Shown here piece by piece: positions 9,519-12,087 of a stretch of DNA of 54,069 nt. Position 1 is the first letter of the stretch. The number at the start of each line of letters is the position of its first letter. The stretch comes from Melioribacteraceae bacterium. GTDB lineage: Bacteria > Bacteroidota > Ignavibacteria > Ignavibacteriales > Melioribacteraceae. The position numbers and the translations under genes are program-made. The notes beneath the pieces are model-generated. The model saw nothing but the letters and a program-made list of their open reading frames with translations, made no database searches and was not told where the DNA came from. Location of the stretch: the NCBI GenBank assembly GCA_015493615.1, contig WGCV01000031.1:1-54069 (forward strand), in the 5' to 3' direction.

Positions 9519-9610
9519 ACGGAGTTTCGGTTTATTTCCATATTCTGAGATTCTTTCTCCGCTCCGCTTTAGCCGAGGATTTTGCTCCTAACTCCAAAAT
9601 GGCAATAGAG

Positions 9611-10117
9611 GCAACTTAATAAGTTTTATCGTTAACCCATTGCTTCTGCAATGGGGTTAGAACGAAAAAGAAATGAAGTTCAACCGGTTTACCGGTTTTA
9701 TTAACCCAAAATTGTCATTAGAATTTTTTCTAATCTAAAATTTTTAAGAAAAATACTATTCTTTGTAACGTAGATTGCTTGCAATCTGCGAAAAAACAGC
9801 ATAATGCTAAGCTGCAGCCACAGATTGACCGTTCGCAAGCTCACTAATCAATCTGCGCTACAAATAGAACGAGTAAGATTTTCTTACATGGTTTTTTGTC
9901 TAAAATTAACAGCTTGGCAGTTAGTTAACATGTTGTTCCTTAATAACTTAAGTCATCTTTTTCTTAATGGCAGTCATTAGAATTTTTTGTCTAATGACAA
10001 TTTTGGGATTAACTATGTGGAACATAAACCGGTGAACCGATTAGAGAAATATCATATCTCCGTTTACCCACTGATAAATCAGTGGGTTAAGACGAATGCT
10101 TGTTTCCTTAAGTTGAC
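9611..10117. repeat. Composite hairpin repeat, copy 1 (interrupted)
   Basis: From the outside in it has CAACTTAA near 9612 and TTAAGTTG near 10109 as outer inverted ends. A left hairpin TAACCCATTGC-ttct-GCAATGGGGTTA (9633-9659) and a right hairpin TTACCCACTGAT-aa-ATCAGTGGGTTAA (10064-10090) follow. Between them are the inner motifs CAACCGGTTTACCGG and AAACCGGTGAACCG. Copy 2 at 11344-11532 has the same order of parts in about 190 bases. Copy 1 is longer because another element is inserted in its centre. Confidence 0.7.
9701..10012. repeat. Nested inverted-repeat element inside copy 1
   Basis: The left end TTAACCCAAAATTGTCATTA (extends to 9722) is matched by its reverse complement at 9990-10012 with one extra base. 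It is inserted where copy 2 reads straight through. Inside it is a further inverted pair, TTGTAACGTAGATTG (about 9764-9780) against CAATCTGCGCTACAA (about 9848-9862), with two mismatches. The inner unit is flanked by AT-rich sequence and has no coding potential. Confidence 0.6.
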
Positions 10118-10151
10118 AGCTTAGACTTTGAAGACGCAATAAAAAACTAAT

Positions 10152-11168
10152 TTAATTTTCAGCGACAAAACTTTCTATTTCATTCAAATATTTTTTCTTT
10201 AAATCGTCATCGATAAAACTGGCTTCAATTGAGTTTTGCGCAAGCGTTGTAATATCTTCCTTTGTAAGATCAAGCGCGTCGGCGACGGCAAGGAAATTAT
10301 CATTTACATAACCGCCGAAGTATGCCGGATCATCCGAATTAACCGTAGCGCGTAATCCCTTATCCAGCATGGTTTTCAGCGGGTGATTGTGTAAATCCTC
10401 AACTACTTTAAGCTTCAGATTGGAGAGCGGGCAAACAGTCAATGTCATTTTCTCGTTTGCAAGGCGTTCAACAAGTTTGTCATCATCAAGGGAATGATTG
10501 CCGTGATCGATTCTGTCAACGCCGAGAATGTCAAGCGCTTCCCAAACATATTCGGCGGGACCTTCCTCCCCTGCGTGAGCCGTTAGCATAAATCCTTCCT
10601 CGCGGGCTTTAGTGTAAACATTCTTGAATTTGGATGGCGGATTTCCCACTTCGGAGGAATCGAGTCCGACACATTTAATCCACGACTTATAGGGCGTTGC
10701 TTCTTCCAAAGTTTTAAATGCCGCCTCTTCGGAAAGATGACGAAGAAAACTGAGAATTAAATTGTAAGTCATTCCGTATTTACTTTTTGCGTCTTCGAGC
10801 GCGTCGTGAATTCCTTCAATAACATAAGCAAAAGGAATTCCGCGGTCGGTGTGCGTTTGCGGATCGAACATTATTTCGGTATGAATAACATTCTGTTTGT
10901 GAGCTTTTTCGAGGTAAGCCCAAGTTAAATCGTAAAAATCTTTTTTTGTCTGAAGCGCTCCCGCGCCCGCGTAATAAATATCAAGGAATTCCTGCAGGTT
11001 GTTGAAGTCGTATGCTTTTTTTAATTCTTCAACTGTGGCGTACTTTATTTTTACTCCGTTGCGCGCGGCAATGTCGAACATAAGCTCCGGCTCAAAAGAA
11101 CCTTCAATGTGCAGATGCAGCTCCGCTTTGGGAATTTCTTCAATAAATTTTTTCATTTCGTCAGTCAA
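10152..11168 (-). CDS. Adenosine-deaminase-family enzyme, adenine deaminase type
   Basis: The 338-residue amidohydrolase removes the 6-amino group of a purine, using a single metal ion. Ligands visible are H18 and H20 in ELHLHIEG, His at about 197 in AHAGEEGP with catalytic Glu about 200, IDHGNHSL, and the Asp pair near 279-280 in [10 protein letters not shown]. The signatures [28 protein letters not shown] and [11 protein letters not shown] match the branch characterised as adenine deaminase rather than classical adenosine deaminase. Adenine to hypoxanthine (purine salvage) is therefore the favoured reaction, but adenosine cannot be excluded. The gene is monocistronic on the minus strand, with GGAGG about 10 nt upstream of the ATG. 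Confidence 0.88.
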
Positions 11169-11343
11169 GATTTTTTCCTCCTTTTTTGAATTATAAACTG
11201 TTGAAAAATAATGAAGAATTTTGAAATACCGAAATAAACAAAACAGGCGTAGTTACCAATCAATAAGGATAATTATAGTTATTGCAAGAAACCTTTGCAA
11301 AACCGAAAATTGTGAAATTGAGTCCGCCACGGCGAGTGTGGGT

Positions 11344-11532
11344 GTCAACTTAAGCGTTTTTTGTAATTAACCCATTGCTTCAGCAATGGGATTAGTACGT
11401 AAAAGAAATGACGTTCAACCGGTTGACCGGTTTCCTTAACCCATTGACACATAAACCGGTGAACCGGTTGCAGCGTTTATGTTTTACCATTAACCCACAG
11501 ATGAATCAGTGGGTTAATGAGAAAGATTTTTA
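11344..11532. repeat. Composite hairpin repeat, copy 2 (uninterrupted)
   Basis: Order of parts: GTCAACTTAAG at the left end; hairpin TTAACCCATTGC-ttca-GCAATGGGATTA (about 11367-11394); CAACCGGTTGACCGG; AAACCGGTGAACCGG; hairpin TTAACCCACAGATga / ATCAGTGGGTTAA (about 11489-11515); and CTTAAGTTGA at the right end. It matches copy 1 (9611-10117) part by part. The symmetrical build suggests a non-autonomous mobile element. Confidence 0.7.
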
Positions 11533-11648
11533 CTTAAGTTGATAACATTGGTGTCTTGTGTCACTATATCATAAAGATTGGTTTTTTTCTATAAAAGGAA
11601 AGGAAGGAGATTCCTCTGCATATGAGTCAGCTGTTCTATTTGTTTGTG

Positions 11649-11758
11649 TCGCTCCTACGGAGCTTATGATTGATGATTTACTGTTTATTACAAAGGTTTA
11701 GCTCCTACGGAGCAATGACTTAATCATATTGTACGGAGCAATGACTTTATCATATTGT
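11649..11758. repeat. GCTCCTACGGAGC hairpins and 26-bp tandem repeat
   Basis: GCTCC-tac-GGAGC occurs at 11649-11661 and 11701-11713. After the second copy, ACGGAGCAATGACTTAATCA (starting at 11707) continues for 26 bp and is repeated at once with one change (11733-11758). Confidence 0.65.
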
Positions 11759-12087
11759 CTGTGTAGTTTTCGAAAGGCTTTGCACAAGCCGACCCGGACA
11801 AGCCGGAAATAAAACGATAAGAAGTTAAACAAAGAAATCTCTAAAAACCCTACAAATAAAGGGCTTTAGAGTATCTGGGGAAATATTCCGCCAATAATAA
11901 CTTAAATTTTGCTGATATGGAACTAAGCGGCGCGTGGGGGATATAAATACTGTTTTTCATAACTGTTTAAAAAGAAGGGCGTAATTTTATTCCAAAAATT
12001 TTAGTATCTTATTTTCAATTTAAGTTTATTTTCAAATTACTGAATTTAAAAATTTTTCCGGCGTCTCCGGTTTAGGGATTTTGTAAA

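Follow-up and report, generated by a model that had tools for sequence, protein, structure and literature searches.

A short mobile element, here called MITE-A, carries between the terminal repeats of one class of transposon an ordered set of hairpins resembling those that flank the transposase genes of another class. Two copies lie in the window, by which we mean the whole 54,069-nt stretch analysed (contig C31 of a draft assembly that totals 3.15 Mb over 67 contigs), and one of them is interrupted by a second element, MITE-B. Taking the reading as a whole, we consider it very probable that MITE-A is IS4-moved, that the MITE-B nested in copy 1 is IS1380-moved, and that the interior of MITE-A consists of REPIN-like hairpins of the Y1 type. 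On this view an IS4-family DDE transposase, supplied in trans, would have recognised the CAATGYTGTCAACTTAAG ends of copies 1 and 2 and moved them, duplicating about 9 bp of target; later the resident IS1380-family transposase would have inserted MITE-B into copy 1, with ATTAA as the target duplication. The nesting of MITEs is commonplace; what is new is the hairpin cargo, together with its maintenance.

Both copies share the order outer inverted end, hairpin HP1, palindrome P1, short core, palindrome P2, hairpin HP2 and outer end, as the initial annotation of this DNA had stated and as the coordinates bear out (positions are those of the window, on the plus strand unless noted). Copy 2 (11337-11550) is uninterrupted. 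Its left end, at 11337-11354 with an inner part (11343-11354) reading TGTCAACTTAAG, is followed by HP1 (CCCATTGCTTCAGCAATGGG, 11371-11390), P1 (AACCGGTTGACCGGTT, 11417-11432), P2 (AACCGGTGAACCGGTT, 11454-11469), HP2 (CCCACAGATGAATCAGTGGG, 11494-11513, with one mismatched pair) and the right terminal repeat (CAATGTTATCAACTTAAG, 11533-11550, minus strand). Copy 1 (9603-10124), which likewise has IS4-type ends, comprises a degenerate left terminal repeat (CAATAGAGGCAACTTAATAAG, 9603-9623), HP1 (CCCATTGCTTCTGCAATGGG, 9636-9655), P1 (AACCGGTTTACCGGTT, 9682-9697), P2 (AACCGGTGAACCGATT, 10027-10042), HP2 (CCCACTGATAAATCAGTGGG, 10067-10086) and the right terminal repeat (10107-10124, minus strand), with MITE-B between P1 and P2. 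The roughly 310 bp previously described as inserted in the middle of this copy correspond to the 303 bp of MITE-B (9705-10007) plus the 5-bp duplication ATTAA, which stands at 9700-9704 on its left and at 10008-10012 on its right. The inverted repeat bounding the insert had been given as 21 bp; the perfect, IS1380-type terminal repeat (CCCAAAATTGTCATTAGA) is 18 bp. The third inverted pair reported within the insert is present, imperfect and placed by eye, with arms at 9762-9777 and 9849-9864. The gene said to be flanked by the two copies (10152-11168, minus strand) does lie between them, and its enzyme is adenosine deaminase (NF006850, 548 bits) rather than adenine deaminase. Structure prediction, which the initial annotation had proposed as a check, gave strong single-strand folding for both copy 2 (z -8.9) and the MITE-B insert (z -6.4); an Rfam search returned a single match (E 0.49, 17 bits versus a cut-off of 100), and thus no known structured RNA family.

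MITE-A is about 210 bp long, too short for a transposase gene, and multicopy. A genome-wide search with copy 2 produced 43 BLAST matches, which resolve into at least 28 places of this family and three of a related one, the count being a lower bound with 40 of 55 first-look candidates scored. Alignment of 20 copies defines the 18-bp ends, CAATGYTGTCAACTTAAG. A search of 58 genomes with copy 2, its own genome among them, produced matches in eight; no more than 13 candidates were scored per genome, a depth at which absences are weak. The family is present in its own genome (G000) and in G004, one of four congeners; in the other six, the match spans a hairpin and is at most about 70 bases long. 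A search of a plasmid collection for the element gave no match.

Where target duplications of MITE-A can be read, they are 8-10 bp. Of 11 testable copies of the genus, four have 8-9-bp duplications under a strict score (L006, CCCGTTATG; L010, TTTTCGAC; L011, TGTACCCGG; and L077) and seven have none; swapping the flanks gives 0.37 on average. Duplications at L065 (CGAAAAACAG) and L015 (8 of 10 positions) were recognised by eye and lie outside the 4/11 count. The target-site duplications that had been suggested as a check exist in both families, but none is readable at copies 1 and 2 of the window. In G004, a sister species of the same genus, MITE-A sequence is found on both sides of the same deaminase gene. 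No clean empty site of the window copies was seen in G001, G002, G003 or G021; the deaminase match (68-70% in G001 and G002) and the acyl-CoA-dehydrogenase match are on different contigs in G001, G002 and G021, and G003 has no deaminase match among the matches listed.

The outer ends have an owner elsewhere. The exact 18-mer occurs in at least 115 stretches of a public genome collection, under titles that include Bacteroidetes, Ignavibacteria, Chlamydiae, Clostridia, Bacilli and methanogens, and 26 of 50 paired elements with these ends among the matches listed have target duplications, versus 0.81 with swapped flanks. The element L216 (1415 bp) has perfect copies of these ends, a 10-bp duplication (CGGTGGTGTG) and a gene for a 444-aa IS4-family transposase (NF033592, 164.6 bits, cut-off 115). 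IS4 target duplications are 9-13 bp long. Relatives of the L216 protein are found in 8 of 97 related genomes, and at four of eight such loci examined there is a MITE-A-type end with at most two mismatches, on both sides at L319 (G052) and L317 (G011, CAATGCTGTCAGGTTAAG), which are order relatives, and on one side only at L318 and L325. In G000 itself the protein has 0 matches. Because ends and duplications are shared with IS4-family elements elsewhere, none of which is seen in G000, we classify MITE-A from its sequence as an IS4-type MITE that at present has no visible helper in its own genome. Given the 0 matches to the L216 transposase here, the mover of MITE-A would have been lost, be missing from the 67-contig assembly, or have diverged.

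Other candidates for this role were rejected. The resident PF01609 transposases (four loci, two of them at contig ends of the draft assembly and not readable whole) showed no convincing pair of these ends. The IS1 family, whose ends the outer ends resemble, was dropped as their owner; PF03400 has no match in the genome, and the ends are found on IS4-family elements. An autonomous partner with the same ends, which the initial annotation had thought worth seeking, was located in this genome for the inner family; that of the outer family was seen exclusively in other genomes. Small elements with the same 18-bp IS4-type ends are also present in methanogenic archaea (L210, L217, L223, L248, L256 and L264, with record titles Methanobrevibacter and Candidatus Methanovirga), and so these ends cross domains.

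For MITE-B, 56 BLAST matches correspond to at least about 40 places in the genome, again a lower bound (40 of 139 candidates scored), many of them lying at contig ends, where near-identical repeats tend to fall. Its end motif, allowing up to three mismatches, occurs 61 + 60 times versus 1 + 2 for a reversed control. The full-length partner, at C27:2213-3698 (1486 bp), has ends CCCAAAATTGTCA(A/T)TAGA, a duplication ATAAT and a 441-aa IS1380 transposase (265.8 bits, cut-off 180). Among the 16 paired elements in the loci retrieved, the full C27 element included, 10 have a perfect 5-bp duplication, as do 9 of the 15 that have no transposase gene; three more of the 16 match at 4/5, and the window MITE-B has ATTAA on both sides. 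MITE-B thus shares with the IS1380 family its partner's ends and the 5-bp duplication, but has no transposase gene and a different interior. In G004, copy 1 lacks its left half, and what remains of it starts at another MITE-B-type end (...AATGACAATTTTGGG then ATATTGTATC) whose position differs from that of the window insert, so that MITE-B-type DNA probably entered copy 1 at least twice. The layered insertion of small non-autonomous elements proposed at the outset is supported, both layers being multicopy MITE families. The inverted pair within MITE-B (9762-9864) reads TTTGTAACGTAGATTG / CAATCTGCGCTACAAA, and similar pieces occur in the differently built MITE-B-type DNA of copy 1 in G004.

The interior of MITE-A points to a different class of transposon. 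Among the five Y1 transposase matches in this genome, the gene at L167 is flanked by CCCACGGATTTATCCGTGGG and AACCGTTTCAACGGTT before it and by AACCGATGAATCGGTT and CCCACGACTGAAGTCGTGGG after it (HP-P-gene-P-HP), and MITE-A has its short core where L167 has the Y1 gene. The outer stems agree between the two (AACCCA..TGGGTT and AACCG..CGGTT), as do order and spacing, the two members of a hairpin pair being 24-25 bp apart at L167 and 26 and 24 bp apart in copy 2; the inner stem sequences, or tips, differ. The description 'composite hairpin element' was therefore apt, in that the hairpins resemble a transposon class other than the owner of the outer ends. Relatives of the L167 protein are found in 71 of 97 related genomes. 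The flanks of 30 Y1 loci among the matches listed contain 64 perfect hairpins versus 0.5 expected from Markov shuffles, with hairpins on both sides of the gene at 18 loci. A CCCA..TGGG hairpin or an AACC/AACG palindrome is present at all 15 loci with at least 54% protein identity (both at 11 of them) and at 2 of the 15 below this value, a threshold that was set after the table had been inspected.

With a slightly loose pattern, 29 of the 30 Y1 loci have Y-x-x-x-Q-x-x-H-H, which the available part of Quentin et al. (2018; PMC6006769) gives as the signature of TnpA_Y1 subclass 1.2, a group mostly from Cyanobacteria and Bacteroidetes. The clade, short Y1 proteins with the DHIH, WQ and Y-x-x-x-Q-x-x-H-H motifs described there, is placed in subclass 1.2 by protein motifs only. 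The table in that part of the source has 'no' under REP for this subclass; the tabulated absence is not matched here, where one clade has both flanking hairpin pairs and dispersed relatives. No MITE-A-type end with up to four mismatches was found near any of the 30 Y1 genes, so that Y1 loci carrying the outer ends were dismissed as an explanation; there were two matches at five mismatches. As no IS4-type end within four mismatches lies near these 30 genes, the outer ends and the hairpins are not parts of one transposon. Judged from these likenesses, the MITE-A interior most likely corresponds, minus the gene, to the two hairpin pairs (HP-P ... P-HP) found around genes of this TnpA_Y1 clade, and we infer that a REPIN-like unit was captured between DDE ends, in that direction.

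Two of the resident Y1 genes have further features. At L167:61-2000, the Y1 gene and its hairpins directly follow a 439-aa ORF that looks by eye like the N-terminal part of a DNA methylase, and the insertion may have split a putative DNA methylase gene. A third Y1 gene (L169, ORF 1492-1938) lies between two arrays, at 1118-1449 and 1984-2236, that share six short palindromes and their order.

Modules of the P-HP-P kind are also found inside elements whose ends are quite different from those of MITE-A; these, and the IS4-end elements described below, are loci among the matches listed and not a census. Elements with CAGCRATNCGGGG ends have 8-bp duplications at L091 (GAAAATTA) and L092 (ACAATATT) and 7/8 matches at L088 and L090, and L089 and L093 of the same family yielded no acceptable end pair, even with a loosened pattern. 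At L094, a module lies within TTCAAGTTGACC ends with TTATAATT; among elements with AACCNNTTGTGTGAATTA ends, short duplications are seen at L098 (TACAT) and L103 (AAGAAC), that at L104 being weak. A hairpin element with AGAG..TGTGTGAAAAT ends at L100:449-569 (G006) is nested in another REP-like hairpin, CCCACGACT..AGTCGTGGG. Within the IS4-end set, 18 of 46 distinct elements have one or more perfect hairpins inside them (a total of 27 versus 0.4 expected). Six of the 21 viewed as folds look mirror-ordered by eye, with other sequences (L177, L185, L206, L212, L225 and L272), all six from Bacteroidetes or Ignavibacteria records; by script, only L225 (four) and L272 (three) of these have three or more perfect hairpins. 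The hairpins of L206 and L272 have no exact match in the Y1 flanks read in the same genome, the nearest being CCGTTGGCTTCAGCCAACGG. The L225 element (L225:4385-4568, Adhaeribacter soli) is bounded by IS4-type ends, contains four mirror-ordered palindromes and has a target duplication that is nearly perfect.

Within MITE-A, the hairpins change more slowly than the rest. In 23 aligned copies from two genomes they are 3.9% off consensus versus 15.5% for the spacers, and lower in 23 of 23, with the terminal ends diverging about as much as the spacers (L077, which was in the wrong orientation there, was left out of this alignment and of the singleton count; its site is in the pairwise test). At three sites that are common to G000 and G004 by their surroundings, 8 of 212 hairpin positions have changed versus 54 of 295 in spacers (p 3.5e-7), a roughly 5-fold lower rate, and the hairpins thus seem, on this sequence comparison, to be maintained in place; leaving out window copy 2, whose left flank is lost, the counts are 5/144 and 27/197 (p 0.001). 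Around the L167 Y1 gene, the hairpins outside the gene show 0/58 changes versus 16/219 in the surrounding sequence (p 0.03). Singleton substitutions do not separate hairpins (40/1642) from spacers (79/2359; p 0.11), a lack of difference that we put down to saturation of the spacers, yet it counts against hairpin maintenance. Not every hairpin is kept, as copy 2 in G004 has a 4-nt deletion in HP1. Changes in the stems are not compensated beyond chance (unpaired cells 12/6/10/20 versus 12.7/6.0/12.7/19.7 expected), and so it may be the sequence, not the pairing, that is kept.

The hairpins would be kept because they are still used, and we have two guesses as to the use, folded DNA sites for the Y1 protein and RNA structures, of which the first is slightly preferred. 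Use by the host through RNA, with the hairpins acting as terminator, stability or processing signals for neighbouring genes and being kept by their benefit, is an idea we find doubtful. It would agree with their strong folding and with the placement of the 28 MITE-A places, of which, on a rough ORF call, 18 are between tandem genes, six between divergent and one between convergent genes, two are unassigned and one is in an ORF. The single convergent place nevertheless speaks against such signals, and led us to drop the idea of a terminator for convergent genes; the copy 2 stems also have no long T-run after them, and there is no Rfam family. We also think it rather unlikely that the conservation has a mutational cause, with palindromes being restored by template switching or by gene conversion between copies. 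The palindromes do show the strongest conservation, many copies are available as donors, and singletons alone show no difference; template switching, however, predicts compensated double changes, of which one cell was seen across the four hairpins, and it is difficult to picture gene conversion in tracts of 16-20 bp that leave out the spacers.

Another alternative is that MITE-A is a REPIN in the strict sense, moved together with its ends by the Y1 transposase, the outer repeats forming just part of its folded ends. The order and spacing of the hairpins, like those around the Y1 gene, and their standing as the most conserved part of the element would suit this. Single-strand HUH transposition makes no target duplications, whereas the MITE-A family shows them at 8-10 bp; the same 18-bp ends are found on IS4-family elements, but not at the 30 Y1 loci within four mismatches (two matches at five). 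We regard this alternative as very improbable. Chance similarity between two unrelated local inverted repeats is already refuted, and its probability negligible, given at least 28 places with common ends and hairpins and the folding z of -8.9. Beyond the preferred reading, an IS4-type MITE with captured Y1-type hairpins, there is a broader proposal that we hold tentatively, as possible but short of probable: subclass 1.2 Y1 transposases would have REPs in the form of paired hairpins, which would repeatedly have been captured by DDE elements as MITE cargo and would be selected where they land because the Y1 protein or the host still uses them. If this is true, MITEs would be vehicles spreading a single-strand-DNA recognition module that they themselves do not need.

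Bacterial MITEs of insertion sequences make target duplications. Those named in the available part of PMC3733652 (Nezha, RUP and NEMIS) resemble MITE-A in their size of 70-300 bp, IS-like terminal repeats, lack of a gene and foldability, but the MITE-A interior differs in consisting of ordered hairpins like those of another transposon class, which are its slowest-changing part. With REPINs and the REP-RAYT system, as far as described in the portions of PMC3116915 and PMC3733652 at hand, MITE-A shares hairpins in inverted order, similar ones around a resident Y1 gene, and intergenic dispersal. It differs in that each arm is a double hairpin (HP+P), in that DDE ends and target duplications surround the unit, and in the foot; no GT[AG]G was found at the hairpin 5' foot in copy 2, where the feet read ...AATTAACCCA and ...CATTAACCCA. 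Double inverted repeats with hundreds of dispersed copies, described in the same part of PMC3733652 for P. putida ORF 607 and P. fluorescens ORF 4255, are similar in that each flank of a Y1 gene combines a degenerate REP unit with a stem-loop unrelated to it; sequences and hosts differ, and that account, in the part available, mentions neither DDE ends nor duplicated targets. ISPpu9 of P. putida (PMC8450116, available part) also brings an insertion sequence and REP sequences together at one place, but there the insertion sequence sits inside REPs, whereas here REP-like hairpins sit inside the mobile element.

REPs are widespread and their use is disputed. REP-like hairpins on DDE mini-transposons are separated from their own mover, so that their retention after landing can be asked about, and the few testable sites here say that they are kept after landing; the hairpins are a candidate substrate for Y1 proteins of subclass 1.2, among them the 147-aa Y1 protein encoded on C51. 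A literature search of open PMC (titles and abstract openings) returned no account of DDE MITEs with REP modules, which is not proof of absence.

The surroundings of copy 2 contain other repeats. A piece of another dispersed repeat (CCTTTGCAAAACC..AATTGT..ATTGAG) at 11287-11336 adjoins its degraded left end, and a similar repeat lies to the left of other MITE-A copies, for example L003 and L024. To the right of copy 2, the segment 11551-11964 is missing at the same place in G004; it contains a 26-bp tandem duplication and GCTCCTACGGAGC palindromes similar to the ones that border the second Y1 gene here (L168), and many matches to one part of it (11634-11926) occur in G004.
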